Below are positions 8,652-33,035 of a stretch of 33,739 nt of DNA, piece after piece. Source of the DNA: Actinomycetota bacterium (GTDB lineage: Bacteria > Actinomycetota > Acidimicrobiia > Acidimicrobiales > CAIXPF01). The stretch lies in the NCBI GenBank assembly GCA_016870475.1, contig VGBO01000025.1:1-33739 (forward strand), given 5' to 3'. Under the pieces are notes generated by a model. That model was given only the letters and a program-made list of their open reading frames with translations, did not search any database and was not told the DNA's origin. Position 1 is the stretch's first letter. Each line of letters opens with the position of its first letter. A program made the translations under genes and the position numbers.

Positions 8652-8739
8652 CAGTGCGTCGGCCGGAGTTCGGGCCGCCCGCTCCGCTGTCCGGTAGAAC
8701 GTGCCCCGACGTGTCGTGCGTCGACGACGAGGGGGACGG

Positions 8740-11700: not shown

Positions 11701-12141
11701 GCGCTCGTCCGCCACTGCTGCCGCATGTTCGTGACCGCTGCGTCGGTCACCGTGCCGTTCTTCACGATCGTGCTGCGCAAGTCCTACGGCCTCGGCGCCC
11801 AGGGCATGGCCGCAGGCAGCATGAAGACCCCGTTCTGGGCCGTGTCGTGGCCGACGGGCGAGTTCGGCGGAATGGGGCTCGAGGGTGCCGTCAAGCTCGG
11901 GTTCCGCAAGGAGCTCGAAGCGGTCGAGGAGCCGGCGGAACGCCGGGCGCTCTACGACAAGCTCGTCGCGAAGATGTACGAGAACGGCAAGGCGGTCAAC
12001 ACGGCGATGATCTTCGAGATCGACGCCGTCGTCGATCCGGCCGAGTCCCGCCACTGGATCCTGTCCGGGCTCCGCTCCGCTCCCGTCCCCCACTGGCGGG
12101 CACGCGAGACACCGAAGCGGCCCTGCGTCGACACCTGGTGA
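8740..12141 (+). CDS. single-chain biotin-dependent acyl-CoA carboxylase
   Basis: A 1133-aa protein with all carboxylase parts on one chain. Biotin carboxylase lies at about 2-445: KVLVANRGEIAIRIAR start, glycine-rich ATP loop VKALAGGGGRGM, and ELNARVQVEH with E294 and R298. A linker and Ala/Pro-rich hinge follow. The biotinyl domain has VMESMKMEHV with target K560. The carboxyltransferase runs from about 610 to the end (GMGGPAMIEGGG, LCDTPGNMVGPE). This layout matches the single-chain long-chain acyl-CoA carboxylases known from mycobacteria, which carboxylate short to long acyl-CoAs; the substrate here is not predictable. The ATG at 8740 is preceded by GAGGGGGA. No partner subunit is nearby. 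Confidence 0.92.
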   Translation: MGLQKVLVANRGEIAIRIARAATDLGIATVVVHPDDDRASLHTRAGDECRRLAGRGAAAYLDIAQLVAVAVDAGCDAVHPGYGFLAENAAFATACEAAGLRFVGPTPAMLELFGDKVAARDLADRCGVPTLGGTSGPTDLATATAFLEALGPNGAVMVKALAGGGGRGMRPVTAVADLAEAMERCRSEAQAAFGNGAVYVERFVPRARHVEVQLVGDGTGAVAHLWDRECSLQRQRQKVVEIAPVTELSDGVRARILDAATRLAAAVDYRSLGTAEFLVDAPADGDDVDVAFIELNARVQVEHTVTEEVTGVDLVATQLRLAGGETLASLGLDQASVPAPRGVAVQVRVNLETMQADGTARPSGGVLTQFDPPSGPGVRTDTYGYAGYATSPSYDSLVAKVIAHAPDRTAALRRVGRALDEFRIEGVQTNIGFLRVLLEAPEVVGGDVHTRTVDEAVPALLAAAAAGTPRHFATEAAAPSGLAGTRVASDDPLAVLALGKSGTPSAPAAPAAPPAAAAAVGPDGTVAVAAPLQGTIVSVGVEVGQEVAAGQQVLVMESMKMEHVIAAEVSGVVRMIAVASGDAVYEGHGLLFIEEGDVSVSADLDADAVDLDHIRPDLAEVIARHAHGLDENRPDAVARRRRTGMRTARENVADLVDDGSWIEYGALTVAAQRSRRTVEDLMENTPADGMLAGVGSVNGDQFGEDGSQAVVMSYDYTVLAGTQGFFNHYKKDRMMELARDWRLPVVFFAEGGGGRPGDVDVISGGGLDVTTFHTWGQLSGTVPLVGITTGRCFAGNAVILGCCDVVIATEGSNIGMGGPAMIEGGGLGVYRPEEVGPLSVQVPNGVVDIVVRDEAHAVEVAKQYLSYFQGRTADWEEHDQRELRHIVPENRLRIYDVRKVIDTMFDVGSVLEIRRGFGHGMVTAFARIEGRPVGVIANDPSHLGGAIDSDAADKATRFIQLCDAFDLPIVSLCDTPGNMVGPEYEKLALVRHCCRMFVTAASVTVPFFTIVLRKSYGLGAQGMAAGSMKTPFWAVSWPTGEFGGMGLEGAVKLGFRKELEAVEEPAERRALYDKLVAKMYENGKAVNTAMIFEIDAVVDPAESRHWILSGLRSAPVPHWRARETPKRPCVDTW

Positions 12142-15954: not shown

Positions 15955-17669
15955 CCGCCGTACCGGTTCGTGATCGGGAGGCGTCGGTCCTTGCCGAAGG
16001 CCTTCGTCGAGATCCGGGCGCCCGGCGCCGTCTGCCGACGCTTGTACTCGGCGAGCACGATCAGTCGGGCGATCCGTTCGACCACGGCGCGGTCGAAGCC
16101 CGCGTCGACGAGTTCGTCCACCGACCGGTCGTCGTCGACGAACCCGTCGATGATCGGATCGAGCACCTCGTACGGCGGCAGGCTCTGGTCGTCACGCTGG
16201 TCGGGTCGCAACTCCGCCGAGGGCGGCTTGGTGAGCACCGACACCGGGATCACCGGGGCACCGTCCCGCTCGTTACGCCACCGGCACAGCTCGTACACGA
16301 GCAGCTTCGGCACGTCCTTGATCACCGAGAAGGCCCCGGCCGTGTCGCCGTAGAGGGTCGCGTACCCGACCGCCGACTCCGACTTGTTCGACGTCGTGAG
16401 CACCAGCCAGCCGAACTTGTTCGACAACGCCATCAGGGTGACGCCGCGGAGGCGTGACTGCAGGTTCTCCTCGGTGAGATCGGCACCACGCCCGGCGAAG
16501 CTCGGCGCGAGCATCGACTCGAAGGCGCGATGCGCCTCGTCGATCGGGATCGTCCGGGCCTCGATGCCGAGCGCCGCGGCGAGCGCCTCGGCGTCGGCGA
16601 CGGAGTGGTCCGAGGAGTAGCGGGACGGCATCAGCACGCCGTGCACGCGGTCCGGACCGAGCGCATCCGCTGCGATCGCCGCGACGAGCGACGAGTCGAC
16701 CCCGCCGGACAGGCCGATGACCACGTCGCTGAACCCGTTCTTGCGGACGTAGTCACGGGTCGCGAGCGTCAGTGCGGCGTAGACCTCCGCGACGGGGTCG
16801 AGCGGGTCGGCGACGACGTTCGCCGAGCGGGGCCGACCCTCGACGGCGTCGGTCACCGGGACGAGCGGCAGCGGGGCTGCGTCGGGACGGTGCCTCGGGT
16901 CCACGAGCCGCTTGCGGTACACCGGCCGGATCTCGAGCTCGGTGACGGCGACGTGCTCGAGGAACTGCGGGGACCGGGCGACGAGCTCACCGTCCGCGTC
17001 GACGACGAAGGAGCCGCCGTCGAAGACCAGTTCGTCCTGACCGCCGACGAGGTTCACGTACACGATCGCCGCGCTGGCGTCCGCCGCCCGGGTCGCGATC
17101 ATCCGCTCACGATCGGACGCCTTGCCCCGGTGGTAGGGCGACGCGTTCAGGCTCAGCACGAGGTGCGCCCCACCCGCGGCGGCACGGGCGATCGGCCCGG
17201 CCGGCGCCCACGCGTCCTCGCAGATCGTCACCCCGACCGGAACACCCGCCACGACGAAGAGCGGCTGGTCGACGTCACCCGGCGTGAAGTACCGCTGTTC
17301 ATCGAACGGCCCGTAGTTCGGCAGGAGCTGTTTGCGCACGATCCCGTGCACGCGCCCGTCCGCGCAGACGGCGGCGGCGTTCCCGAGCGCGTCCCCACCG
17401 TCGACGAACCCGACGACCGCCACGCACCGACCGGTCGCTGCGGCGACCCTGTCGAGCGCCGCGAGGTTCGCCTCGACGAACGCCGGACGGAGGACGAGAT
17501 CCTCGGGCGGGTACCCGGTCAGCGTCAGTTCGGGGAACACGGCGAGGTCGCAGCCGGCCGACTCCGCCTCCGTGAGCGCCGCGACGACCGCGGCGACGTT
17601 GCCGTCGAGGTCACCGACGACGGTGTCGAGCTGGCACGTCGCGACACGGATCCTGCGGGAGGATGACAC
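15951..17669 (-). CDS. nadE: glutamine-dependent NAD+ synthetase
   Basis: A 572-aa two-domain enzyme that amidates nicotinate adenine dinucleotide to NAD+, taking ammonia from glutamine. The N-terminal nitrilase-type glutaminase has the triad E47 (FPELTLTGYPPED), K113 (VRKQLLPNYG) and C150 (VTICEDAW). The C-terminal ATP pyrophosphatase domain has GLSGGVDSS (319-327) and STSNKSE-type residues (TTSNKSESAVGYATLYGD). The GTG start lies 7 nt after a TACGCT -10 element (17677-17682). It is divergent from glnA2 across 44 bp and followed by a coupled small gene. Confidence 0.95.
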   Translation of the reverse strand: MSSSRRIRVATCQLDTVVGDLDGNVAAVVAALTEAESAGCDLAVFPELTLTGYPPEDLVLRPAFVEANLAALDRVAAATGRCVAVVGFVDGGDALGNAAAVCADGRVHGIVRKQLLPNYGPFDEQRYFTPGDVDQPLFVVAGVPVGVTICEDAWAPAGPIARAAAGGAHLVLSLNASPYHRGKASDRERMIATRAADASAAIVYVNLVGGQDELVFDGGSFVVDADGELVARSPQFLEHVAVTELEIRPVYRKRLVDPRHRPDAAPLPLVPVTDAVEGRPRSANVVADPLDPVAEVYAALTLATRDYVRKNGFSDVVIGLSGGVDSSLVAAIAADALGPDRVHGVLMPSRYSSDHSVADAEALAAALGIEARTIPIDEAHRAFESMLAPSFAGRGADLTEENLQSRLRGVTLMALSNKFGWLVLTTSNKSESAVGYATLYGDTAGAFSVIKDVPKLLVYELCRWRNERDGAPVIPVSVLTKPPSAELRPDQRDDQSLPPYEVLDPIIDGFVDDDRSVDELVDAGFDRAVVERIARLIVLAEYKRRQTAPGARISTKAFGKDRRLPITNRYGG

Positions 17670-17676
17670 GTCCGCC

Positions 17677-17706
17677 AGCGTACGCCAGCGGCCGCCGCGC
17701 CAGAAT
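17677..17706. promoter_or_regulatory. divergent -10 elements of nadE and glnA2
   Basis: TACGCT on the minus strand (17677-17682) ends 7 nt before the nadE GTG. CAGAAT on the plus strand (17701-17706) ends 7 nt before the glnA2 ATG. Both suggest leaderless transcripts from a 44-bp shared region. No GlnR-like half-sites were seen here. Confidence 0.45.
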
Positions 17707-17713
17707 GGTGCCC

Positions 17714-19069
17714 ATGGAGAACGACCGGTCAGCAGCAGGACGACGCCGAGCCGACGAGTACGTCCTGCGCACCGTCGAGGAGCGCTCGGTTCGGTTCATC
17801 CGGATGTGGTTCACCGACGTCCAGGGTTCGCTGAAGTCGTTCGCGATCACGCCGGCGGAACTCGAGGTCGCCTTCGACGAGGGCATGACCTTCGACGGAT
17901 CGGTGATCGAGGGGTTCTCGCGGGTGCAGGAGGCCGACATGGTCGCCCGCCCCGATCCGACCACCTTCGAGCTGCTCTCCTGGCGCAAGGACGACGAGCC
18001 GGTGGCGCGCATGTTCTGCGACATCCTCGACCAGTCCGGCGCCACCTTCGCCGGCGACCCGCGTCAGGTCCTCAAGCGCAACCTCGCCCGCGCCCGCGCC
18101 GCCGGGTTCACCCTGCACGTCAGCCCGGAGATGGAGTTCTTCTACCTCCGTTCCTCCGAGGGCACGCCGGAACCGGTCGACCGGGTCGGCTACTTCGACC
18201 AGAACGCACCGGAGGCGACTGCCGGGCTGCGGCGGAACACCATCCTCACGCTCGAGGCGATGGGCATCCCGGTGGAGAGCAGCCACCACGAGATCGCCCC
18301 CGGCCAGCAGGAGATCGACCTGCGCGCCACCGACGCGCTCACCATGGCCGACTCGATCATCACCTTCCGGACCGCCGTGAAGGAGGTCGCCCACCAGTTC
18401 GGGGTGTACGCGACCTTCATGCCGAAGCCGATCCGTGGCGTGAACGGTTCCGGCATGCACACCCACCTCTCGCTGTTCGAGGGCGACGTCAACGCGTTCG
18501 CCGCGCCGGACGATCCGTTCGGGTTGACCGCGGTCGGCCGGTCCTTCATCGCCGGACTCCTCCATCACGCCGCCGCGATGACCGCGGTAACGAACCCGTG
18601 GGTGAACTCCTACAAGCGGCTCGTCGCCGGCTTCGAGGCTCCCGTGCACATCTGCTGGGCGCGCAACAACCGGTCGGCGCTCGTGCGGGTGCCGCCGGTG
18701 CCCGCCGCCAAGGCGGCGTCCACGCGCGTGGAGTACCGGGCCCCGGACCCGGCGTGCAACCCCTACCTCGCTCTCTCGGTCATGCTCGCCGCCGGTCTCG
18801 ACGGCATCGAACGGGGCCTCGAGCTCCCCGTCGAGGCAGCGGACAACCTCTACGCCCTCGGCGAGGAGGAGCTCGCAGCGCTCGGGGTGCGGTCGCTCCC
18901 ACGCACCCTCGGCGAAGCGGTCACCGAGCTCGAACGCTCGGACCTGCTGCGCGAGGCCCTCGGCGAGCACACGTTCGAGCACCTGCTGCGGAACAAGCGG
19001 CGAGAGTGGGCGGAGTACTGCGCCGAGGTGACGCCCTACGAGCTCGACCGGCACCTCGGAGTGCTCTGA
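17714..19069 (+). CDS. glnA2: glutamine synthetase type I, GlnA2-like
   Basis: A 451-aa GS fold: N-terminal beta-grasp with FIRMWFTDVQGSLKSFAI and FDGSVIEGF. The catalytic domain has the metal ligands in SPEMEFFYLR, the ATP-loop region [20 protein letters not shown], and RVEYRAPDPACNPYLALSV. It is shorter than GlnA1 (478 aa) and lacks the GSI-beta insert, as expected for GlnA2. NLYALGEEE retains a tyrosine (Y380) at the adenylylation-loop position. It sits just upstream of glnE, the same order as glnA2-glnE in mycobacteria. GlnA2-like proteins may be true synthetases or act on other amines, so its substrate needs care. Start ATG 17714 is set by the CAGAAT -10 element. Confidence 0.92.
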   Translation: MENDRSAAGRRRADEYVLRTVEERSVRFIRMWFTDVQGSLKSFAITPAELEVAFDEGMTFDGSVIEGFSRVQEADMVARPDPTTFELLSWRKDDEPVARMFCDILDQSGATFAGDPRQVLKRNLARARAAGFTLHVSPEMEFFYLRSSEGTPEPVDRVGYFDQNAPEATAGLRRNTILTLEAMGIPVESSHHEIAPGQQEIDLRATDALTMADSIITFRTAVKEVAHQFGVYATFMPKPIRGVNGSGMHTHLSLFEGDVNAFAAPDDPFGLTAVGRSFIAGLLHHAAAMTAVTNPWVNSYKRLVAGFEAPVHICWARNNRSALVRVPPVPAAKAASTRVEYRAPDPACNPYLALSVMLAAGLDGIERGLELPVEAADNLYALGEEELAALGVRSLPRTLGEAVTELERSDLLREALGEHTFEHLLRNKRREWAEYCAEVTPYELDRHLGVL

Positions 19070-21796
19070 GTGCTCGACGCGATCGTCCGCGACGCCGGTG
19101 ACCCACGATGGGTCGCCGTCGTCGTCGAACGACTCGCATCCGCGGACCCGACGCTCGGCGCCCGCCTCCGCGACGACGAGCACGTCGCCCGTGCCGTGGT
19201 CGCCCTCGCGGATGCATCCCGGTCGCTGACCGAGGCCGTCCTGCGCGACCCGTCGCTGCTCGCCGTCGTCGAAGACCTCACCGAGCGCGAGCCGGCGGAA
19301 CGGCGCGACGAGGTGCTCGCCCTCCTGCGTACGCCGGGTGCCGACGCCGGCGCCGTGCTCCGACGGTGGAAGCGGCAGGAGTTCGTGCGGGTCGCCCTGC
19401 GGGACCTCCTCGGCCTCGCCGACCTCGCCGTCGTGGCCCGGGAGGTGTCCGACATCGCCGACGCCTGCCTCGGCGGAGCACTGGTCGCCGCCGCGCCGAC
19501 GCAGCCGTTCGCCATCCTCGCGATGGGCAAGCTCGGGGGACGGGAGCTGAACTACGCGAGCGACGTCGACGTGCTCTTCGTGCACGAGGGCGACGAGTTC
19601 ACCGCCGTGCGCACCGCCCGTCGGGTCATCGCGCTGATGTCCGACCAGACCGTCGACGGGATCGTGTTCCGCACCGACGCCGACCTGCGACCCGACGGCA
19701 AGGTCGGCGCCCTGTCCCGGACCGTCGCCGCCTACCGGGCGCACTACGCCGAACGGGCGCTCGCCTGGGAACGCCAGGCGCTGCTCAAGTCGAGGTTCTG
19801 CGCCGGCGACGTCGACCTCGCCGTCACCTGGTTCTCCGCCACACGCCCGGCACTGTGGGAGGCCCCGCTGGCCGACGACGACGTGCGGTCGATCCGGGCG
19901 CTCAAGGCCCGCGCCGAAGGCCTGCTCGAACGTGCCGGAACCTTCGAGCGCGAGGTGAAGCGCGGCCGGGGCGGGATCCGCGACATCGAGATCGCCGTCC
20001 AGCTCCTGCAGCTCGTGCACGGCCGGCACGACCCGGCGATCCGCTCGGCGACGACCCTCGACGCGCTCGCCCAGCTCGCGCGCAACGGCTACGTCGACCG
20101 CGACGACGCAGAACACCTCGACGTCGCCTACCGCTACCTGCGCACCGTCGAACACCGACTGCAGCTCGAGGGCGAGCATCAGGTCTACGCTCTCCCGGCG
20201 GACGACGCAGGGCTCGACCGGCTCGCGCGGGTCCTCGGCTACCGCGACACCGCAGCGGCGACCGCACGGGAACAGTTCGAGGCGACGCACCGACGCCATC
20301 AGGCGTCGGTGCGCTCCATCCACGAGCGCCTCTTCTTCCGCCCGCTGCTCGAGGCGCTCGCCGGGACCCGCCCCACCGACGGCGCGGCGCTCGCCGAGCA
20401 ACTCGCTGCATTCGGGTTCCGTGATCTCGCTGCGACACGGGCCGCTGTGGAGGAGCTGACCATGGGCCGCGGCCGCAACGCCACCCAGCTCCGCCTCCTC
20501 CTGCCCGGGCTCCTCGAGGCCCTCTCCGTCGCCCCGAACCCCGACCTCGGCCTCCTGCAGCTGCGGGTCGTGCTCGATGGGCCGGTACGGGCGACCGCGG
20601 TCGTCCCGGTGCTGCGGGAGTCGCCGGTCGCCGGTGAACGACTCTGTCGGGTGCTCGGGTCGTCGAAGCTGATCGGGCAGGCGATCCGCCGCCAACCCGA
20701 CTTCGTCGCCGAACTTGCCGAGGACGAGATCCTCTCCCCCCGGGACGCCGCCGAACTCCGTGAGGACGCCGTCGAGACGCTCCGCTGGCGGTCCGACGAC
20801 GACGCCGCCCGCCAGGACGGCCTGCGCCGGTTCAAGCGCCGCGGCGAGCTCCGAGTGGCGACCCGCGACGTGCTCGGCATGGCCGACGTCGAACAGGTCG
20901 GCCGGGAGCTCGCCGACCTCGCCGACGCCGCGCTCACCGGCGAGCTCGCCGCACTCGCCCCCTCGGTGCCGATGGCCGTCGTGGGGATGGGCAAGCACGG
21001 CGGACGCGAGCTCGGTTACCCCTCCGATCTCGACGTGCTGTTCGTCCATGCCGGCGACCGGACCGCTGCGGAGGCGACCGCTGCCCGTCTGCTCGCCGAC
21101 GTCGGCGCCCTCACCGCCGAGGGACGGGCGTGGGAGATCGACGCGCGCCTCCGGCCGGAGGGGTCGAGCGGCCTCCTCTCCCGCACGATCGACTCGTACC
21201 GCGAGCACCACCGGTCGCACGCGCTGCTGTGGGAACGCCAGGCGATGACCCGCGCCCGCGTCGTCGCCGGCGACCCGGCGCTCGCCGTCGAGTTCGCCGC
21301 GCTCCGCGACGAGGTGGCGTTCGGACGCGGACTCACTGCCGAGGAGTCCGCCGAGATCGGGCACATGCGCAACCGGGTGCGAACCGAACGGTTCCGGCGC
21401 GGCGAGGTCCCGGCCCGGCACCTCAAGCTCGGCCCCGGCGGTCTCGCCGACATCGAGTTCGCCACCCAACTGCTGCAACTCCGTCACGGCCGGGAGGTCC
21501 CGGCGGTTCGCGACCCGGGGACTCTCCCGGCCCTTCGGGCCCTCGGGGAGGCGGGCGTGCTCGCAGCAGGCGACGTCGAGGTGCTCGTCGAAGCCCACCG
21601 GTTCTGTTCCCGCGCCCGCAACGCTCTCCACCTGCGCGGTGCGGTGAACGCCGATCAGCTCCCCGCTCGGGACGAGGAACTCGTCGACCTCGGACGGCTG
21701 CTCGGCATCGACGGACCGGCTGCGACGGCCGTCGCGGCGGTGCACGCCGACCGGTGCGGCGCCGCCGCCGCGGTCGTCGACGCCCTGTTCGCCTGA
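19070..21796 (+). CDS. glnE: glutamine synthetase adenylyltransferase/deadenylylase
   Basis: A 908-aa two-headed nucleotidyltransferase that adds AMP to, or removes it from, glutamine synthetase. Two catalytic domains are visible. The first begins near M152 (MGKLGGRELNYASDVDVLFV) and the second near M640 (MGKHGGRELGYPSDLDVLFV). Each has the metal-binding Asp pair in SDxDxLFV and is followed by a GlnE-type helical region (RGRGGIRDIEIAVQLLQL; LGPGGLADIEFATQLLQL). The GTG start directly abuts the glnA2 stop (TGAGTG). Slightly shorter than most GlnE proteins. No GlnD is present in the window. Confidence 0.96.
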   Translation: MLDAIVRDAGDPRWVAVVVERLASADPTLGARLRDDEHVARAVVALADASRSLTEAVLRDPSLLAVVEDLTEREPAERRDEVLALLRTPGADAGAVLRRWKRQEFVRVALRDLLGLADLAVVAREVSDIADACLGGALVAAAPTQPFAILAMGKLGGRELNYASDVDVLFVHEGDEFTAVRTARRVIALMSDQTVDGIVFRTDADLRPDGKVGALSRTVAAYRAHYAERALAWERQALLKSRFCAGDVDLAVTWFSATRPALWEAPLADDDVRSIRALKARAEGLLERAGTFEREVKRGRGGIRDIEIAVQLLQLVHGRHDPAIRSATTLDALAQLARNGYVDRDDAEHLDVAYRYLRTVEHRLQLEGEHQVYALPADDAGLDRLARVLGYRDTAAATAREQFEATHRRHQASVRSIHERLFFRPLLEALAGTRPTDGAALAEQLAAFGFRDLAATRAAVEELTMGRGRNATQLRLLLPGLLEALSVAPNPDLGLLQLRVVLDGPVRATAVVPVLRESPVAGERLCRVLGSSKLIGQAIRRQPDFVAELAEDEILSPRDAAELREDAVETLRWRSDDDAARQDGLRRFKRRGELRVATRDVLGMADVEQVGRELADLADAALTGELAALAPSVPMAVVGMGKHGGRELGYPSDLDVLFVHAGDRTAAEATAARLLADVGALTAEGRAWEIDARLRPEGSSGLLSRTIDSYREHHRSHALLWERQAMTRARVVAGDPALAVEFAALRDEVAFGRGLTAEESAEIGHMRNRVRTERFRRGEVPARHLKLGPGGLADIEFATQLLQLRHGREVPAVRDPGTLPALRALGEAGVLAAGDVEVLVEAHRFCSRARNALHLRGAVNADQLPARDEELVDLGRLLGIDGPAATAVAAVHADRCGAAAAVVDALFA

Positions 21797-21798
21797 AC

Positions 21799-21816
21799 GC
21801 CGGCGACGGTGCCGGC
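21799..21816 (+). terminator. weak hairpin after glnE
   Basis: A 6-bp stem GCCGGC / GCCGGC with a 6-nt loop starts 2 bp after the glnE stop, without a U-run. Candidate only. Confidence 0.3.
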
Positions 21817-21826
21817 CCCCGGCCGG

Positions 21827-21832
21827 TAGCGT
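21827..21832 (+). promoter_or_regulatory. -10 element of arsM
   Basis: TAGCGT ends 7 nt before the arsM ATG, predicting a leaderless transcript. No clear -35 and no ArsR-type operator seen. Confidence 0.4.
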
Positions 21833-21839
21833 CGTCGGC

Positions 21840-22598
21840 ATGGCCGAGCGCAACCTCATCCACCTCGAGGTCGAAGAGCACTACGCCGCCGCCGCCCGGA
21901 CCGCCGCCGCGGGCGGTGCCGCCTGCTGTGGCGAAGACGAGCGCACGTGGGGCGCCGTGCACTACGACACGGTCGCCGACGAACTCGGTTCGTTGCCCGA
22001 CGCCGTCGCACTCGCAAGCCTCGGATGCGGGAACCCGACTGCGGTCGCCGAGCTGCGGGCCGGTGAGGTGGTCCTCGACCTCGGGTCCGGCGGCGGCATC
22101 GACGTGCTGCTGTCGGCACGCCGGGTCGGACCGACCGGTCGGGCGATCGGCGTCGACATGACCGACGACATGCTCGAGCTGGCGCGTCGCAACGCGACCG
22201 AGGCCGGGGCGACGAACGTCGAGTTCCGCAAGGGCCACATCGAGGAGCTCCCCGTCGAGGACGGCAGCGTCGACGTGATCATCTCGAACTGCGTGATCAA
22301 CCTCGCCGCCGACAAGGACGCCGTGTTCGGCGAGATGTTCCGGGTGCTCCGGCCGGGTGGGCGTGTCGGCGTCAGCGACGTCGTGACCGAGGACCGCCTC
22401 TCCGCCGAGGAGCGCGTCGCACAGGGTTCCTACGCCGGCTGCATCGCCGGCGCCCTGCCCGTCGCCGCCTACACGGCCGGTCTCGAGTCGGCAGGATTCG
22501 ACGACGTGTCGGTGACCTTCACCTCCAGCGTCGGCGACGGCATCCACGCGGCCATCGTGCGGGCGACCAAGCCCGCCGCTGGCGGCTGCTGCGCCTGA
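21840..22598 (+). CDS. arsM: arsenite S-adenosylmethionine methyltransferase
   Basis: A 252-aa class I methyltransferase that methylates As(III). The SAM site is VLDLGSGGGIDVLL (78-91) with GVDMTDDML downstream. The ArsM cysteines are present: C63 in SLGCGNP, C151 in SNCVINL and C201 in YAGCIAGAL. A further CC pair lies near the N-terminus (29-30) and at the C-terminal end (GGCCA). The start follows a TAGCGT box by 7 nt. It stands alone between glnE and glnA1, with no arsR, arsC or arsB nearby, so it may be constitutive or serve detoxification in trans. Confidence 0.92.
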   Translation: MAERNLIHLEVEEHYAAAARTAAAGGAACCGEDERTWGAVHYDTVADELGSLPDAVALASLGCGNPTAVAELRAGEVVLDLGSGGGIDVLLSARRVGPTGRAIGVDMTDDMLELARRNATEAGATNVEFRKGHIEELPVEDGSVDVIISNCVINLAADKDAVFGEMFRVLRPGGRVGVSDVVTEDRLSAEERVAQGSYAGCIAGALPVAAYTAGLESAGFDDVSVTFTSSVGDGIHAAIVRATKPAAGGCCA

Positions 22599-22604
22599 CG
22601 CGCA

Positions 22605-22630
22605 GCGGCGGCGCCCGAAGGCGCCGCCGC
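22605..22630. terminator. bidirectional hairpin between arsM and glnA1
   Basis: A perfect 11-bp stem, GCGGCGGCGCC / GGCGCCGCCGC, with a CGAA tetraloop lies between two convergent genes. No U-run. It can serve both strands. Confidence 0.7.
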
Positions 22631-22670
22631 CGTCACGCGACCACCGGTTCCGCCCTGCGGCGGGTCCGAC

Positions 22671-24107
22671 TCACAGGTCGAAGTACAGGTGGAACTCATA
22701 CGGGTGGGGCCGCAGCCGGATGGCGTCGACTTCCTTCTCCCGCTTGTAGGCGATCCACGTGTCGACCACGTCCTGAGTGAACACGCCACCGGCGAGCAGG
22801 AACGCATGGTCCGCCTCGAGGGCGTCGAGCGACGCCTCGAGCGACCCCGGCACCTGCGGGACCTTGGCGAGCTCCTCCGGCGGGAGGTCGTACAGGTTCT
22901 GGTCGACCGGCGCCGGCGGCTCGATCCGGTTCTGGATCCCGTCGAGGCCCGCCATGAGCTGGGCCGCGAACGCCAGGTAGGGGTTGCACGACGGGTCCGG
23001 GCAGCGGAACTCGAGACGCTTCGCCTTCGGCGACTTCGAGTACTGCGGGATCCGGATCGCTGCGGAGCGGTTCCGCTGGCTGTACACCAGGTTCACCGGG
23101 GCCTCGTAGCCCGGCACGAGCCGCTTGTAGGAGTTCGTCGTCGGCGCAGCGAAGCCGAGAATCGCCGGAGCGTGCTTGAGCAGACCGCCGATGTACCACC
23201 GGGCCATGTCCGACAGGCCGGCGTACTTGTCGCCGTCGTAGAACAACGGCGAGCCGCCCTTCCACAGCGACTGGTGGGTGTGCATGCCCGAGCCGTTGTC
23301 CTGGAACAGCGGCTTCGGCATGAACGTCGCCGTCTTGCCTGCGGCCCACGCCACGTTCTTGACGATGTACTTGTAGAGCATGAGCTTGTCGGCCACCCGC
23401 AGGAGGGTGTCGAAGCGCATGTCGATCTCGGCCTGCCCGCCGGTGGCGACCTCGTGGTGCTGCAGCTCGATCTCGATGCCGCACTGCTCCATGAGGGCGA
23501 CCATGTCGGACCGGAGGTCCTGGAACTGGTCGCTCGGCGGAACCGGGAAGTAGCCCTCCTTGTGCCGGGGCTTGTAGCCGCGGTTCCGGGTGCCGTCGAG
23601 GTTGAACTCCTTGCCGAGGTTCCACGCCGCAGCATCGGAGTCGACCTCGTAGAACGCGCTGTTGGCGTTCTGCTGGAACCGGGCGGAGTCGAAGATGAAG
23701 AACTCCGCCTCAGGACCCATGAAGCAGGTGTCGGCGAGACCGGTGGAGATCAGGTAGGCCTCGGCCTTCCGTGCGATGTTCCGCGGGTCACGGCTGTACT
23801 GCTCGCCCGTCAGCGGGTCGTGCACGAAGCAGTTGAGGTTCATCGTCTTCCGGGTGCGGAAGGGGTCGATGACCGCTGTGTTCGGGTCCGGGAGCAGGAT
23901 CATGTCCGACTCCTGGATCTCCTGGAAGCCGCGGATCGAGCTGCCGTCGAACCCGAAGCCCTCCTCGAAGGAGTCCTCCGAGAGCTCGTGCAGCGGCGCC
24001 GAGTAGTGCTGCATCTGGCCGGGCAGGTCGCAGAAGCGGAGGTCGACGAATTCGACGCCCTGCTGCCTCGCGTACTCGATCACCTCGGACGGCGTTCTGT
24101 TCTCCAC
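22671..24107 (-). CDS. glnA: glutamine synthetase type I (GSI-beta)
   Basis: A 478-aa main glutamine synthetase, making glutamine from glutamate, ammonia and ATP. Motifs: [31 protein letters not shown] (metal ligands), [36 protein letters not shown], and [20 protein letters not shown]. The adenylylation site is Y406 in NLYDLPPEE, the target of GlnE. The GTG at 24107 is chosen because GAGAGGTG precedes it by 5 nt; longer in-frame starts add non-conserved sequence. The upstream region carries a four-part GlnR-type operator shared with glnR. Confidence 0.96.
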
Positions 24108-24187
24108 GGTGTCACCTCTCTCGTGCTGCGGCCCCCGCTCGTCGGGAGCCCGACCGGGGGGCCGTGGCGCCATGGTGGCACCTCACC

Positions 24188-24225
24188 GTTTCCCTACCGT
24201 GTTCCGATTGTGAACGCCGTGTGAA
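24188..24225 (-). promoter_or_regulatory. GlnR-type operator between glnA and glnR
   Basis: Read on the minus strand: TTCAC-N6-TTCAC-N6-AACAC-N6-GAAAC, with half-sites at 24221, 24210, 24199 and 24188 (plus-strand left ends), exactly 11 bp apart. It lies about 80 bp upstream of the glnA start and 67 bp upstream of glnR, so it could control both, including autoregulation of glnR. Confidence 0.7.
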
Positions 24226-24267
24226 CGGATCGGCCCGCGGGGTGCGGGTCGGGGCGGGCGGACGCGG

Positions 24268-24273
24268 TACCGT
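24268..24273 (+). promoter_or_regulatory. -10 element of glnR
   Basis: TACCGT, 19 nt before the ATG, giving a leader of about 12 nt. Weak, no clear -35. Confidence 0.3.
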
Positions 24274-24292
24274 TCCGTGCGGTGAGCGCCTG

Positions 24293-24973
24293 ATGGAACC
24301 CCTGCTCGTCTACCCCTACCCGGTTCCTGCCGACCTTGCGCAGGCGCTCGGCCGTGCCGACCTCACCTACATCGGCGTGCGCGACGATGTCGAGGCGACC
24401 CGGAAGGAACCCGAGAACGGCTGGAGCGGTGCCGTGCTCGTCGCCGAGGACGACCCGGACGCCGCGCTCGCCCTCGCCAAGGTGCTCCGCGACCGGGACT
24501 ACCCGCTCGAGCCGCTGGTGATCGTCCTGCGATCCGATCAGCTCCCCGTCCTCGAGGGAGAGGACGGGCTCTACGACGACTTCGTCCTCGCCCCGCTCAA
24601 CCACCGGGAGCTCGACGCCCGCCTCCGCCGCCAGTTCGTGCGTCTCGGGCGGTCCGAACGCTCGGACCTCGTCGTGCACGGCGATCTCGTCCTCAACCTC
24701 GAGACCTACCAGGCTGCGATCGCCCGCGAGCCGCTCACCCTCACGTACATGGAGTACGAGCTGCTGAAGTTCCTCGCCCAGCACCCGGGCAAGGTCTTCA
24801 CCCGCGAGGCGCTGCTGAACCGGGTGTGGGGCTACGAGTACTACGGCGGGGCGCGCACGGTCGACGTGCACGTGCGCCGCCTGCGGGCGAAGCTCGGCGA
24901 GGAGCATGCGAACCTGATCCAGACGGTGCGTTCCGTCGGTTACCGGTTCGGTCAGACCCGGTGGTCGAGCTGA
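24293..24973 (+). CDS. glnR: GlnR-type nitrogen response regulator
   Basis: A 226-aa OmpR/PhoB-type regulator. The winged-helix DNA-binding domain (about 125-222) is very close to known GlnR: LTYMEYELLKFLAQHPGKVF, VWGYEYYGGARTVDVHVRRL and NLIQTVRSVGYRF. The receiver domain is divergent: the stretch corresponding to the phosphorylation site reads AVLVAEDDPD (47-56), with Ala where GlnR has its conserved Asp. That fits the known phosphorylation-independent, orphan character of GlnR. No sensor kinase is adjacent. It is divergent from glnA, and three matching operators in this window support its identity. RegX3/MtrA-like regulators are the main alternative. Confidence 0.88.
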   Translation: MEPLLVYPYPVPADLAQALGRADLTYIGVRDDVEATRKEPENGWSGAVLVAEDDPDAALALAKVLRDRDYPLEPLVIVLRSDQLPVLEGEDGLYDDFVLAPLNHRELDARLRRQFVRLGRSERSDLVVHGDLVLNLETYQAAIAREPLTLTYMEYELLKFLAQHPGKVFTREALLNRVWGYEYYGGARTVDVHVRRLRAKLGEEHANLIQTVRSVGYRFGQTRWSS

Positions 24974-26583: not shown

Positions 26584-26742
26584 TCAGGTGTTCAGGTCGG
26601 CCCAGACCGAGTCGCCGGCACGCCGCTCGGCGTCGTCCTTGAGCAGCCAACCGATGATCGCCGCCACCGGCGGGCCCGACATGATGACGAGCACCGGGAA
26701 GACGACGAGCAGGACGACTGCGAAGATCACGCCACCGAGCAC
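26584..26742 (-). CDS. 52-residue membrane protein
   Basis: A small gene encoding a start LGGVIFAVVLLVVFPVLVIM, then SGPPVAAIIGWLL and a charged tail KDDAERRAGDSVWADLNT. One long or two short membrane segments with a cytoplasmic tail are likely. The GTG is 9 bp after the stop of the iron-sulfur/molybdenum fusion gene and has AGGAAG 5 nt upstream, so it belongs to that operon. Clean codon use, a ribosome binding site and operon position support a real gene. No function recognised. Confidence 0.72.
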   Translation of the reverse strand: MLGGVIFAVVLLVVFPVLVIMSGPPVAAIIGWLLKDDAERRAGDSVWADLNT

Positions 26743-26751
26743 GAGGTCTTC

Positions 26752-28344
26752 CTAGCGCACGGGACGGCCCGTCGGCCAGCACTCCGGCCGCCCCTGGTGC
26801 CGCCAGACGGCGGCGGCGACCGCGGCGAACACCGCGTCGGACACGGGGAGCGGTTCGCCCGTCCCGACCTCGACGACGACTCGAACCGTTGGCATGTCGA
26901 CCGCCCGCACCACACCGGCACTCCGCACGGTGAGCCCGAGCGGCACACCGTCGGCGCCGACCGCGAGCGCTTCGGAGGTCACCCACGAGAGCGCCATGTG
27001 CGCCGCACCGATGGCGTAGGAGCGCACCACCACCTCGTCGAGCGGATCCCCGCACCGCACCACGACCTCGATGGTGCCGTCCCCGTGCACCTCGACGGTC
27101 GCCTCCGCGCCCTGCGGGGTCCGCACCGTGATCGGTCCGACGTCGACCGCCGACGACGCGAGCACCACGCCCTCCGCCCAGCCGGCGGTCCGCAACGCGG
27201 TCGAGGTCGGCGGGCCGGGGACGTCGACCTCGGTGACCTCGACGTCCCACCCCTCCACACCGGGCACGGCACCGAACCCGGCCCGGATCCGGTCGACCAC
27301 CCCGGGGGTGCGGACGACGGCGACGTGGGCGGTCCGACCGACCGGGTCGACCGACGCGGCGACCGGAGGACGCTTCGGGCCGAGGCGGACGACGTCCTCC
27401 CGGGACCAGCGCGCACGGACCGGCCGACCGACCTCGGCCGCGAGACCTCGGGCGATCTCGGGCAGCGGCGACGCGGTCTTCCCGCCGAACGCCCCGCCCG
27501 CAGCGACCGGCGACGCCGGCACACCTCCCGGCTCGCACCACGACGCATCCGGTTCGAGGTAGGCCGGGTCGACCCACGAGGTCCGCAGGGTGACCGGGGC
27601 ATCGACGGGCGGCACGGCGAGCGGCGGCACCGCTTCGAGCGTGCCGTGGCGGCCGGGGACCACCCCGGCGAGCCGCCGGGCGGCGTGGGGGGTCGCGGCC
27701 GTCACCCAGGTGCCGTCCGCCGCCCGCATGGCCACCGTCGCGTCGGCGGGCGCCGTGTCCTCGGCGAAGGGCGCACGCCCGAGCGGCACGTCGAGGCCGA
27801 CCTGCTGCGGTCCGGCACCTTCGATCGCCGCACGGCGGGCCGCCGCCCCGAGGTCACGACCGGCGAGCAGCACGGCCGGGTCGACCGACGGGTCGGTGAC
27901 GAGCGCGTAGGCCTCGAGGATCGTCGTCCACCCGGTGCACCGGCACAGGTGCGCGAGCAGCGCCCGCTCCGGGTCGGGACGCTCGCCCGCCGCCTCGGCG
28001 TCGAGTCGCAGCACGATCCCCGGCGTGCAGAACCCGCACTGGCTGCCGCCCGTAGCACACAACGCTGCCGCCCACCGGTCGCGTCGCGCCGGGTCGAGCC
28101 CGTCGACCGTGGTGACGGTGCGATCCGCGATCCGACGCAGCGGGGTGACGCAGGCGACGCGGGGGGCACCGTCGACGAGCACCGTGCAGCAGCCGCACTG
28201 GCCCTGGGGGGCGCAGCCGTCCTTCACCGACCGCACACCCAGCGACTCGCGGAGCGCGTCGAGGAGGGAACCGCCGTCGTCGGGCGCCTCGACCGGCCGA
28301 CCGTCGAGGACGAAACGGACGACGGCACCGGTCGGATCGGACAC
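26752..28344 (-). CDS. fused 2Fe-2S subunit and shortened molybdenum hydroxylase domain (xanthine dehydrogenase/CO dehydrogenase-like)
   Basis: A 530-aa fusion. Residues 1-165 are a CoxS/XdhA-type iron-sulfur subunit: plant-type cluster C44, C50, C53, C65 (GCAPQGQCGCC) and second cluster C103, C106, C134, C136 (QCGFCTPG; HLCRCTGW). Residues about 185-530 resemble pieces of the CoxL/XdhB molybdopterin subunit: GGAFGGK, GRPVRARWSREDVVRLGPKR, SYAIGAAHMALSWVTSEALA, LTVRSAGVVRAVDMPTV, and GTGEPLP with E497 at the place of the catalytic glutamate. CoxL is normally about 770 aa, so over half of the domain is missing while both ends remain. No FAD subunit is nearby. Start: GTG 6 nt after TAACCT. Enzymatic activity is uncertain. 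Confidence 0.82.
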   Translation of the reverse strand: MSDPTGAVVRFVLDGRPVEAPDDGGSLLDALRESLGVRSVKDGCAPQGQCGCCTVLVDGAPRVACVTPLRRIADRTVTTVDGLDPARRDRWAAALCATGGSQCGFCTPGIVLRLDAEAAGERPDPERALLAHLCRCTGWTTILEAYALVTDPSVDPAVLLAGRDLGAAARRAAIEGAGPQQVGLDVPLGRAPFAEDTAPADATVAMRAADGTWVTAATPHAARRLAGVVPGRHGTLEAVPPLAVPPVDAPVTLRTSWVDPAYLEPDASWCEPGGVPASPVAAGGAFGGKTASPLPEIARGLAAEVGRPVRARWSREDVVRLGPKRPPVAASVDPVGRTAHVAVVRTPGVVDRIRAGFGAVPGVEGWDVEVTEVDVPGPPTSTALRTAGWAEGVVLASSAVDVGPITVRTPQGAEATVEVHGDGTIEVVVRCGDPLDEVVVRSYAIGAAHMALSWVTSEALAVGADGVPLGLTVRSAGVVRAVDMPTVRVVVEVGTGEPLPVSDAVFAAVAAAVWRHQGRPECWPTGRPVR

Positions 28345-28369: not shown

Positions 28370-29290
28370 ATGACACCCCGCGAGCACCCTCCGATCCGAC
28401 CGTTGCGCCTCACCCGCCGTGGCCTGCTCGCCGGTGCCGCCGGAACGGCCGGTCTCGCCCTCCTCGGCGCGTGCGGGCGCGCCACACCGGGCAACGGTTC
28501 CCTCGGCGCGGGGGTTGCGACGTACCTCCGACCGTTCTTCGCTACCGGCCTGCGGGAACCCCCGGTGCTGCGCACCGGACTCGAGCAGCGGCTCCCGTGG
28601 GGCGTCGCCGACCCCGACGGCGTGCCGCTCCGGTCCGGCCCGGCGACCGTCACGTTCCGGGTGGTCGGTCCGAGCGGCGCCGAGTTCGCACCGATCGCCG
28701 TCGAGCGCCACGACGGGTCGGTGCCGTTCCCCTACTACCCGCTGCGGTTCACGCCCACGGAGACGGGCACCCACGAGATCGTCACGGAGATCGACGGCCT
28801 CGAACTCACCTCCGCGTTCGCGGTCGGTGCGCCGAGCGACGTCCGGCTCGTCCAGGTCGGCGATCCGGCGATCCCGCTCGACACCGCGACCTTCGACGAC
28901 CCTCGCGGCATCGACCCCGCGTGCACGCGCGACCCGGCCTGCCCGTTCCACGCCGTCACACTCCGGTCGGCGCTCGCCTCGGGTCGACCGACGGTCTTCC
29001 TCGTGTCCACGCCGGCGTTCTGTCAGACGAACGTCTGCGGGCCGGTCCTCGAACAGCTCATCACCGCCGCCGCGGCGCGCCCCGACCTCGTCGTGGTCCA
29101 CAGCGAGGTGTACGCCGACGTCGGCCGCACGAAGGACCCGCTCCGCTCGGCGATCGCACCGCCGGTCGAGGCCTACGGGTTGACGTTCGAGCCGAGCCTG
29201 GTCGTCACCGACGCCCGGGGCATCGTGGTCGAACGACTGGACTTCACCTGGGACGAGCGCGAACTCGCCGCCGCGCTCGCCGCCGTCTGA
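28370..29290 (+). CDS. Tat-type lipoprotein with thioredoxin-like fold
   Basis: A 306-aa exported protein. A twin-arginine signal LTRRGLLAG (RR at 16-17) is followed by a lipobox LLGAC with lipidation Cys35. The middle is a beta-rich segment (VTFRVVGPSGAEFAP..., YPLRFTPTETGTHEIV). The C-terminal part looks thioredoxin-like: RPTVFLVSTPAFCQTNVCGP, with C218 and C223 in a CxxxxC motif instead of CxxC, then VVHSEVYAD and SLVVTDARGIVVERLDF. It might act in extracytoplasmic thiol chemistry or metal handling, but this is inference. It is followed 10 bp later by the thioesterase-like gene. Confidence 0.8.
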   Translation: MTPREHPPIRPLRLTRRGLLAGAAGTAGLALLGACGRATPGNGSLGAGVATYLRPFFATGLREPPVLRTGLEQRLPWGVADPDGVPLRSGPATVTFRVVGPSGAEFAPIAVERHDGSVPFPYYPLRFTPTETGTHEIVTEIDGLELTSAFAVGAPSDVRLVQVGDPAIPLDTATFDDPRGIDPACTRDPACPFHAVTLRSALASGRPTVFLVSTPAFCQTNVCGPVLEQLITAAAARPDLVVVHSEVYADVGRTKDPLRSAIAPPVEAYGLTFEPSLVVTDARGIVVERLDFTWDERELAAALAAV

Positions 29291-30105: not shown

Positions 30106-30426
30106 TCAGCTGAACGACGACCCGCAGCCGCAGGTCTTCGACGCGTTCGGGTTGTTGATCGAGAACCCCTGCTGGTTGAGGCCGTCCTTGAAGTCGAGCG
30201 TCGCACCGGTGAGGAGCGGGGCGCTCGTCGGGTCGACCACGACCTGCACGTCCCCGAAGGCCACGGCATGGTCGTCGGCGGCGATCTCGGTGTCGAAGAA
30301 CATCTCGTAGCTGAAGCCCGAGCAGCCGCCGGGCCGCACGGCGACCCGCAGAGCGAGCCCGTCGACGCCCTCGGCGTCGATGAGCTCCTTGACCTTCTTC
30401 GAGGCGGTGTCGGTGAGCGTGATCAC
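30106..30426 (-). CDS. erpA: A-type iron-sulfur carrier (ErpA/HesB/IscA)
   Basis: A 106-aa Fe-S carrier that passes clusters to apoproteins. The three ligands are C35 (RPGGCSGFSYEM), C99 and C101 (KTCGCGSSFS). The GTG at 30426 has GGAGG 5 nt upstream. It is divergent from the Mrp/ApbC ATPase, another Fe-S carrier family, across 94 bp. ErpA is a descriptive name; A-type carriers are hard to subdivide by eye. Confidence 0.94.
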   Translation of the reverse strand: MITLTDTASKKVKELIDAEGVDGLALRVAVRPGGCSGFSYEMFFDTEIAADDHAVAFGDVQVVVDPTSAPLLTGATLDFKDGLNQQGFSINNPNASKTCGCGSSFS

Positions 30427-30456
30427 AAGGACCTCCAGAACGGGATTTCGCCTACG

Positions 30457-30513
30457 AGCATAGGAGGAATCGAGGCGTTCGGCATCCCCGAACGTTCGAG
30501 GGCTCCCTAGCAT
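30457..30513. promoter_or_regulatory. divergent promoters of erpA and mrp
   Basis: TATGCT on the minus strand (30457-30462) gives erpA a leader of about 25 nt. TAGCAT on the plus strand (30508-30513) ends 7 nt before the mrp ATG. No SufR/RirA-like palindrome was evident. Confidence 0.45.
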
Positions 30514-30520
30514 TTCCGGC

Positions 30521-31696
30521 ATGCCGTCGACGCCCGCAGCCCCGCCTTCGCCGGACGACGTGTTCGCGATGCTGCGCGGGGTCGTCGACCCCGAACTCGG
30601 ATCCGACATCGTCGATCTCGGCATGGCGCGCGACGTGACCGTCGACCCCGACGGCGCAGTCCAGGTGACGGTCGCCCTCACCACCGCAGGCTGTCCGCTC
30701 CGGGCGCAGATCCAGTCCGACGTCCGCACCCGGGTCGGGTCGATGCCGGGCGTGCGGAGCGTCGGCATCACCTTGACGGAGATGACCGCCGAGCAGAAGT
30801 CGGCGGCGATGGCACGCGCCCGCTGGAACGTGCGGGAGAAGGCCCCCGACACCGCCGTTCCGCCGACCACCCGGGTGGTCGGCATCGCGTCGGGCAAGGG
30901 CGGGGTCGGCAAGAGCTCGGTCACCGTCAACCTCGCGGCGGCCATCGCCGCGACGGGGCGCACCGTCGGTGTCCTCGACGCCGACATCTGGGGGTTCTCC
31001 GTACCGCGGATGCTCGGCGTCGACGGGCGTCTGCGCACCGTCCCCGGCGAGAAGCGCATGCTCCCGAACGAACGTCGGGTGGGCGACGGCCGACTCGAGG
31101 TCGTGTCGATGGGCTTCCTCGTCGACGACGAGACCGATGCGCTCATGTGGCGCGGACTCATGCTCAACCGGGCCGTGCAGCACTTCCTCGAGGACGTCGA
31201 GTGGGGCGACCTCGACTACCTGCTGATCGACCTCCCGCCCGGAACGGGTGACGTGCAGATGGGCCTCGCGCGGATGCTGCCGCGAACCGAGCTGCTCATC
31301 GTGACGACACCGGCCCGGGCCGCGCAGAAGGTCGCCGCCCGGGCGGCGACGATGGCCCGCAAGAGCTTCCTCCGCGTCGCCGGGGTCATCGAGAACCTGT
31401 CGGTGTACGTGGCACCGGACGGGTCGACGCACGAGATCTTCGGCGCCGGTGGCGGCGAGGAGCTCGCCGAGGAGATCGGCGTGCCGCTCCTCGCCCGACT
31501 CCCGATCGACGCCACGGTCGCCGCCGGTGGCGACGTCGGTGACCCGGTCGCGCTGCACCCCGGCCCTGCCGGCGACGCGTTCCGGGCCCTCGCCGACCGC
31601 ATCCTCACCGAGGCGATCCCACCGGTCGACCTCGCCGGCTGCTCCGCACGCCTGCTCGATGCGATGGCCGCAGCGTTCGACACGCCGACGACCTGA
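30521..31696 (+). CDS. mrp: Mrp/ApbC-family P-loop ATPase
   Basis: A 391-aa Fe-S cluster carrier/scaffold ATPase. An N-terminal MIP18/DUF59 domain (about 8-85: VFAMLRGVVDPELGSDIVDL, LTTAGCPL) is joined to a Mrp P-loop domain with SGKGGVGKSSVTVNLA (124-139), DADIWGFSVPRML and DYLLIDLPPGTGDVQM. The usual CxxC motif near VIENLS is absent here: the site reads VYVAPDGSTHEIFG. Since that motif holds the cluster in ApbC, this protein may not carry one itself. The ATG follows a TAGCAT box by 7 nt. Confidence 0.93.
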   Translation: MPSTPAAPPSPDDVFAMLRGVVDPELGSDIVDLGMARDVTVDPDGAVQVTVALTTAGCPLRAQIQSDVRTRVGSMPGVRSVGITLTEMTAEQKSAAMARARWNVREKAPDTAVPPTTRVVGIASGKGGVGKSSVTVNLAAAIAATGRTVGVLDADIWGFSVPRMLGVDGRLRTVPGEKRMLPNERRVGDGRLEVVSMGFLVDDETDALMWRGLMLNRAVQHFLEDVEWGDLDYLLIDLPPGTGDVQMGLARMLPRTELLIVTTPARAAQKVAARAATMARKSFLRVAGVIENLSVYVAPDGSTHEIFGAGGGEELAEEIGVPLLARLPIDATVAAGGDVGDPVALHPGPAGDAFRALADRILTEAIPPVDLAGCSARLLDAMAAAFDTPTT

Positions 31697-31742: not shown

Positions 31743-33035
31743 GTGCAACCGACCGACGACCCGCCGACGAGCACACCCCGACCGCCCTCCGTCGACGCGC
31801 TCGCGCGGTCGTTGCGGTCGACGGGTCTCCCCCAACCGCTCCTCGTCGACGTCGCCCGCCGGGTGATCGCCGAGCGACGTGTCGAGGATGCCGCAGCCGA
31901 GGCCGAGGCGGTGCGCCGACGCCTCCTGCAGCCCGTGATCAACGGCACCGGCGTGCTCCTGCACACGAACCTCGGGCGCGCCCCGCTCGGGTACACCGCA
32001 GCCGCGACCCCGACCAACCTCGAACTCCGGCTCGCCGACGGCCGTCGGGGCTCGCGGAGCGACCATGTCGCCACGCTGTTCGCCCGCCTCGTCGACGCCG
32101 ACGCCGCCCTCGTCGTCAACAACTGCTCGGCTGCGCTGCTGCTCGTCCTCGGGGCGATCGCGGCGGGACGCGGTGTCGCGGTCAGTCGAGGCGAGCTCGT
32201 CGAGATCGGCGGCGGCTTCCGGGTTCCCGAGGTCATGACCCAGTCCGGTGCGCTCCTCGTCGAGGTCGGCACCACCAACCGGACGCGCCGCGCCGACTTC
32301 GAACGTGCCGTCTCGACGGCGGGCGGCGACCTCGCTGCCGTGCTGAAGGTCCACCAGTCGAACTACCGCATCGTCGGCTTCACGGAATCGGTCGAGGTAC
32401 CCGACCTCGTCGGCCTCGGCGTGCCGGTGATCGCCGACATCGGCTCGGGACTGCTCGACGCGGCCTGTCCGTGGCTCGACGGGCCACCCCCGTCGTGGCT
32501 CGACGGTGAACCCGCTGCCCGACAGACCCTCGCAGCCGGCGCCGACCTCGTGCTCTTCAGCGGCGACAAGCTGCTCGGCGGGCCCCAGGCCGGGATCATC
32601 GCCGGTCGCGCCGACCTCGTCGCGGCGTGCGCCGCGCATCCGCTCGCCCGGGCGCTGCGACCGGGAGGGCTCGTCCTCGGCGCACTGCAGGAGGTCGCGC
32701 TCGCCTACCTCGACCGTTCTGCCGGCAACCTGCCGTTCTGGCACATGGCGACGCTCACGGTGGACGAGCTGCGTGCCCGCGCCGGAGCGCTCGGGGCCGG
32801 GGTTCCGGTCGATCTCGCCGCCGTCCCGGGCGGCGGCACGCTCCCCGGCGTCGAGATCCCCTCGGCCGGCGTCCGCCTCCGGGGCGACCACCTCGACGCG
32901 CTCCGGCTCCGACCCCCCGGCGCACGGCCGATCATCGCCCGGGTGCGGGACGGGCACACCGAGATCGACCTGCGGACCGTGGACGCGGCCGACGACGGCG
33001 AGCTCGGCGAAGCTCTGCGCGAGCTCCCCGCGTGA
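31743..33035 (+). CDS. selA: L-seryl-tRNA(Sec) selenium transferase
   Basis: A 430-aa PLP enzyme that converts Ser-tRNA-Sec to Sec-tRNA-Sec with selenophosphate. Recognisable family segments are INGTGVLLHTNLGRAPL, VVNNCSAALLLVL, SRGELVEIGGGFRVPEVM, VGTTNRTR, VHQSNYRIVGF, and the PLP lysine K276 in LFSGDKLLGGPQAG. Its tRNA substrate is encoded at 8556-8651. The usual partner selB does not follow; instead an MFS gene overlaps the stop by 4 bp (GTGA). selB and selD must lie elsewhere if the pathway is complete. Confidence 0.96.
   Translation: MQPTDDPPTSTPRPPSVDALARSLRSTGLPQPLLVDVARRVIAERRVEDAAAEAEAVRRRLLQPVINGTGVLLHTNLGRAPLGYTAAATPTNLELRLADGRRGSRSDHVATLFARLVDADAALVVNNCSAALLLVLGAIAAGRGVAVSRGELVEIGGGFRVPEVMTQSGALLVEVGTTNRTRRADFERAVSTAGGDLAAVLKVHQSNYRIVGFTESVEVPDLVGLGVPVIADIGSGLLDAACPWLDGPPPSWLDGEPAARQTLAAGADLVLFSGDKLLGGPQAGIIAGRADLVAACAAHPLARALRPGGLVLGALQEVALAYLDRSAGNLPFWHMATLTVDELRARAGALGAGVPVDLAAVPGGGTLPGVEIPSAGVRLRGDHLDALRLRPPGARPIIARVRDGHTEIDLRTVDAADDGELGEALRELPA

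Follow-up and report, generated by a model that had tools for sequence, protein, structure and literature searches.

A molybdenum hydroxylase family in Acidimicrobiia that appears to have turned into a molybdenum-independent iron-sulfur protein

Normally, it is the cofactor that defines the molybdenum hydroxylase fold. Here, we describe a widespread and strongly selected protein family that kept this fold together with both iron-sulfur clusters and seems to have shed the cofactor site. As some of its carriers are unable to make the molybdenum cofactor (MoCo), a family of molybdenum hydroxylases appears to have turned into a molybdenum-independent iron-sulfur protein. We named this family of short proteins, whose representative studied here has 530 residues, MINI, and consider it probable that its members are MoCo-independent Fe-S proteins for electron transfer or docking. 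A description of the family was found neither in the papers searched nor among the library family names.

Gene and domain composition

The window is the whole stretch of DNA that was analysed (33,739 nucleotides). The MINI gene starts with GTG, and all motifs quoted in an earlier note on this DNA were found in its translation. The gene and its parts are as follows:

26752..28344, minus strand: MINI, 530 residues, two fused [2Fe-2S] domains and a condensed part derived from a Mo hydroxylase (open reading frame, Pfam, orthologues, AF2 model)
27895..28344, minus strand: Fe-S domains, residues 1-150, plant-type and helical [2Fe-2S] with eight ligand cysteines (Pfam Fer2/Fer2_2, invariant Cys, alignment to 1rm6_C and 1sij)
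27595..27894, minus strand: linker and remnant of the α/β hammerhead, residues 151-250, with most of the hammerhead missing when MINI and the fused enzymes are aligned jointly
27145..27594, minus strand: MoCoBD_1 remnant, residues 251-400, with GGAFGGK, SRED, KRPP and AGWAE (hhalign to fused enzymes)
27478..27498, minus strand: GGAFGGK, residues 283-289, followed in the fused enzymes by an acidic pair (E and D) that is lost in MINI
26755..27144, minus strand: MoCoBD_2 remnant, residues 401-530, with RSY-x2-GAAHM, DLT-x-RS (in relatives) and a C-terminal helix
26854..26856, minus strand: codon of E497, the proposed catalytic Glu, at a position that is variable across the family

The eight Fe-S cysteines claimed in the earlier note are indeed present (C44, C50, C53, C65, C103, C106, C134 and C136). 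Seven of the ligands occur in 65 of 65 members of the class-wide set, and C65 is invariant in an alignment of 38 members. In the Pfam search with the window's MINI, Fer2 and Fer2_2 scored above the cut-off, and fragments of MoCoBD_1 (residues 282-331) and MoCoBD_2 (residues 428-485) scored below it. A CoxM-like FAD subunit was not found in the window, in agreement with the note. The missing FAD domain had been regarded as an oddity; however, fused Fe-S/Mo hydroxylases without this domain are a known arrangement.

Descent and predicted fold

The best profile match of MINI is to a set of enzymes, about 860 residues long, in which the Fe-S and Mo parts are fused (hhalign P 100, E 4e-68). Each of these enzymes has matches to the hammerhead and to the two MoCo-binding domains. 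In a tree of the shared columns, 65 MINI sequences form one clade with a support of 0.975, and the sister group is made up of fused Fe-S/Mo enzymes that come mainly from the same class. MINI descends from these fused hydroxylases of about 860 residues, which have no FAD domain. Its nearest full-length relatives resemble selenium-dependent xanthine dehydrogenase (XDH).

The AF2 model of the window's MINI (pLDDT 91.3, pTM 0.92) superposes on the Desulfovibrio aldehyde oxidoreductase (AOR) with 488 residues (Z 22.5, 2.9 Å), reaching from residue 1 to residue 898 of 907. In the model of a MINI protein from family f23 (pLDDT 92.2), all ligands are kept, and 485 residues align with 1sij (Z 23.8, 2.7 Å). 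Since the superposition on the Desulfovibrio enzyme runs from end to end, the ancestral enzyme was condensed along its whole length and not truncated. Compared with the fused enzymes, 354 positions are missing in many separate pieces.

Losses in the molybdenum-derived part

The Fe-S part of MINI retains 22 of the 28 positions that are invariant in 16 fused enzymes. For the Mo part, the corresponding value is 21 of 113, with 42 positions deleted and 50 changed.

Cofactor loops: The GQG, TTGSR and GVGE loops contact the pterin in the xanthine oxidase structure. The longest deletion in MINI corresponds to residues 610-731 of the fused enzyme L018 and takes out both the GQG and the TTGSR loop. The GVGE loop, which carries the catalytic Glu, falls into a deleted or variable segment of MINI in the joint alignment.

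Catalytic glutamate: This Glu is essential in the parent family; the E1265Q variant of mouse AOX1 is inactive (PMC2671166), and the corresponding residue in D. gigas AOR is Glu869 (PMC10223205). GTGEP with E497, as listed in the earlier note, is not a feature of the MINI family: the column contains P in 29 and E in 20 of 65 relatives, A in 4, and other residues besides.

Hammerhead: PF01315 was matched by none of 38 MINI proteins versus 16 of 16 fused enzymes.

Pocket residues: FRGFGANQ of the fused enzymes is replaced by LRAAGWAE in MINI. GGAFG-x-K is retained, as are R325 and R385, two Arg residues lining the parent pocket. Invariant or near-invariant within the family are D266, W269, C270, R385, E391, R441, H449 and R474.

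Judging the state of the pocket from these deletions, MINI has most likely lost MoCo binding and hydroxylase chemistry.

MINI in genomes without MoCo synthesis

We tested 115 MINI-carrying genomes for MoaA, which was present in 107 and absent in 8. Six of the negative genomes (G078, G193, G215, G236, G341 and G949) are all the tested MINI carriers of family f23, and they are 94-97% complete. MoeA was absent in five of five f23 genomes tested (G078, G193, G215, G236 and G341), MoCoBD_2 proteins other than MINI were not found in the MINI carriers of f23, and MoaC was absent in G215 and G236. These are draft genomes, but the absence of the Mo genes is consistent across f23. The other two genomes without MoaA are weaker cases, as G235 has MoaC and G776, without MoaC, is split into 280 contigs. 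The genome of the source organism makes MoCo, unlike the f23 carriers. MINI therefore persists without MoCo in f23, though most carriers make it. Since MoCo-making carriers are so common, binding of MoCo or a precursor would be compatible with the genome content there.

Four f23 genomes contain an orphan MoaC without MoaA (G193:C26, G078:C1, G949:C102 and G341:C55; L190-L193). G193, G078 and G341 lack MoeA as well, and a pathway is not obvious. The orphan gene adjoins a gene pair that is also found in relatives and looks TldD/PmbA-like in sequence.

A MoCo enzyme or a MoCo-binding accessory role is unlikely for MINI because the Glu is variable, the loops are deleted, and carriers without MoaA and MoeA exist. 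Both roles had been offered in the earlier note, the former as a compact oxidoreductase. A minimal active hydroxylase would hold MoCo in the condensed domain, perhaps without a dinucleotide, and oxidize a small substrate. The retained GGAFG-x-K, SRED and KRPP motifs with a single Arg from the FRGFG loop, the superposition of the predicted fold on D. gigas AOR, and MoaA in most carriers would fit such an enzyme; set against the variable Glu, the three missing loops and the persistence of MINI in f23, they leave it very unlikely. A carrier or insertion factor that supplies MoCo to the cell's own full-length Mo hydroxylases is highly improbable. MINI is derived from the kind of enzyme that it would serve and resembles it, and many carriers encode such full-length enzymes, but the f23 carriers have neither MoaA nor another MoCoBD_2 protein, and the gene lies in a block of Fe-S, RidA and glutamine genes and not among Mo genes.

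Distribution and selection

A full-length short MINI was present in six of six sampled genomes of the source organism's family. For the order, it was found in 250 of the 397 genomes sampled, and for the class (Acidimicrobiia) in 93 of 296, including several families outside the order. The orthologues have the same length, and most of the listed matches from the order are 54-62% identical. The full-length MINI relatives L010-L015 are assigned to Acidimicrobiia, Acidimicrobiales or Microthrixaceae and are mostly metagenome-assembled genomes; carriers are soil and water actinobacteria. Outside the class, MINI was not found in a phylum sample of 396 genomes, where the 18 carriers are all members of the class, nor among the listed matches of a scan of 85,000 species. 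A plasmid search gave zero matches.

For close MINI pairs, dN/dS was 0.15-0.26 over the whole protein and 0.17-0.29 when only the Mo-derived part was compared. Because the compact domain order is real, its length is conserved across the class, and purifying selection acts on it, MINI is a functional family, as the earlier note had thought possible. Of the signs it named for such a family, conserved length, conserved Cys and low dN/dS were all found, but E497 is not conserved. The case that it regarded as refuting, full-length relatives with this copy alone shortened, does not apply, as the relatives share the short form. The half-usual length and the sub-threshold Pfam matches to the Mo domains could still suggest a decaying fusion, which the note had also considered, or an assembly or frameshift artefact. 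The orthologues, of equal length and conserved from start to end across the class, and the dN/dS values of 0.15-0.29 rule this out, and the model predicts a single fold with high confidence, so that the chance of such an origin is negligible.

We also considered an internal TGA read as selenocysteine, with SelA encoded nearby, and rejected it for L111, where open reading frame and match end together and the stop lies at the C-terminal edge of the match.

Gene neighbourhood

Besides MINI, the locus in the window contains the following genes, with counts referring to 35 regions compared:

24164..24973, plus strand: GlnR-like response regulator (Pfam Trans_reg_C; 33 of 35)
26584..26742, minus strand: small protein of 52 residues, 9 nt after MINI, where most relatives have RidA
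28370..29290, plus strand: putative Tat lipoprotein of 306 residues, divergent from MINI (20 of 35; also in genomes without MINI)
30109..30426, minus strand: A-type Fe-S carrier (ErpA/IscA-like), the upstream neighbour of MINI (Pfam Fe-S_biosyn; 33 of 35)
30521..31696, plus strand: Mrp/NUBPL-type Fe-S carrier ATPase (Pfam ParA and FeS_assembly_P; 32 of 35)

MINI has a fixed locus with the order Mrp, ErpA, MINI, RidA, GlnR-like, which holds in most of the 35 regions, taken from several orders. RidA is found in 30 of them, glutamine synthetase, after the GlnR-like gene, in 33, and a winged-helix regulator between Mrp and ErpA in 18; the lipoprotein gene, where present, lies between ErpA and MINI. 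Genomes without MINI mostly retain the block, and RidA then often comes directly after ErpA. Hence, MINI is an accessory gene with one fixed site and a history of repeated loss, or of gain and loss.

In 84 of 99 loci, the gene downstream of MINI on the same strand encodes RidA, in most cases within 50 nt, and the PARS motif is conserved in the adjoining RidA. RidA belongs to a family of imine/enamine deaminases (PMC5619798). One f23 genome that lacks MoaA, G949, encodes MINI and RidA in a single in-frame open reading frame of 710 residues (L182:7935-10067), the only such fusion among the 99 loci. At the MINI locus of the window, RidA is absent and the 52-residue reading frame stands in its place; the earlier note was right that this frame exists, and its few homologues lie near the MINI locus in relatives. 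Since ErpA and RidA are also adjacent without MINI, the neighbourhood by itself says little about a shared function.

An arrangement of this kind could mean that MINI donates electrons to the adjacent Fe-S assembly proteins ErpA and Mrp, much as a ferredoxin does in isc operons, while RidA would protect a PLP-dependent cysteine desulfurase. The two [2Fe-2S] clusters with invariant ligands and the order Mrp, ErpA, MINI, RidA in most of the 35 regions, across several orders, agree with this role. However, genomes without MINI still have ErpA, Mrp and RidA grouped together, so that MINI is dispensable for these three, and we consider the role unlikely.

Several further observations concern the window. 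The reading frame called at 30106-31167 (minus strand) is far longer than the ErpA-like gene, which is matched only at 30109-30426. The 306-residue protein has a Tat-like signal and a lipobox, its called start is 25 nt from that of MINI, and it gave zero family (Pfam included) or structure matches. SelA (L-seryl-tRNA selenium transferase; 31743-33035, plus strand) adjoins Mrp and is a neighbour in a few relatives as well. Two glutamine synthetases, a GlnE-type adenylyltransferase (19070-21796) and the GlnR-like regulator are clustered at 17663-24973; the GlnR-like/GlnA part next to the MINI locus is conserved across the class. At 8701-12141 (plus strand), a reading frame of 1146 residues combines biotin carboxylase, biotin-carrier and carboxyltransferase domains.

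Proposed function

The preferred reading, an Fe-S protein that works in electron transfer or docking without MoCo, is probable. MoaA in 107 of 115 carriers, the retained GGAFG-x-K, R325 and R385, and the orphan MoaC in four f23 genomes count against the independence from MoCo. The Fe-S assembly system would load the clusters, with the neighbouring ErpA as the obvious candidate; ErpA may be either the cluster source or an electron acceptor. Electrons would take the parent enzyme's route through both clusters and end at a partner protein, or at a new ligand in the condensed former Mo domain, and not at molybdenum.

The tight coupling to RidA, seen as a gene pair and in one natural fusion, suggests a joint task, in which the partner of MINI would act with RidA, the remover of reactive imines and enamines. 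With only a single fusion and no adjacent RidA at the window's copy, a functional coupling is tentative, at somewhat less than an even chance. The fullest version of this proposal is rather doubtful: a Mo-independent family in which the xanthine oxidase fold shrank to about 370 residues and was remodelled around a new site with D266, W269, C270, R385, E391, R441, H449 and R474, giving a redox protein with two clusters that acts directly together with RidA.

MINI shows a route by which a complex redox enzyme may become an electron-transfer or scaffold protein. The carriers without MoCo make its molybdenum independence directly testable. For annotation, genes labelled xanthine dehydrogenase or (2Fe-2S)-binding protein may belong to MINI and are then unlikely to encode molybdoenzymes.

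Relation to known hydroxylases

Fused Fe-S/Mo hydroxylases (set A2, L017-L040): These enzymes, the sister clade in the tree, share the order of the Fe-S part followed by the Mo part with MINI. Common motifs are the KDGC-x-PxGQCGCCTV spacing, EH/EP-x-x-LE, NGGAFGGK, SRE, KR-x-P and GAxHM. In contrast, MINI is without about 354 residues, the hammerhead core, the GQG, TTGSR and GVGE loops and the catalytic Glu. The best NCBIfam match of MINI, TIGR03311 (Se-dependent XDH), covers only the Fe-S part, and its score of 124 bits stays below the cut-off of 830.

Desulfovibrio AOR/MOP (1sij, 1dgj): The chain order is the same, and both proteins are without an FAD domain. The Desulfovibrio AOR has 907 residues, the MCD cofactor and Glu869, whereas MINI has 530 residues and its cofactor loops are missing.

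CoxSL/XdhABC-type enzymes: Their Fe-S subunit and elements of their Mo domain are homologous to MINI. However, they consist of separate full-length subunits with an additional FAD subunit, and MINI is one short chain.

Of the features that define the xanthine oxidase family, MINI shows the two [2Fe-2S] domains with eight Cys, the common descent and the fold. It does not show PF01315, complete MoCoBD_1 and MoCoBD_2 domains with their loops, or the Glu of GxGE; the host makes MoCo in the case of the source organism's genome but not in the six f23 carriers. As only descent, fold and Fe-S domains agree, MINI is classed as a MoCo-independent derivative of the molybdenum hydroxylases and not as a member.
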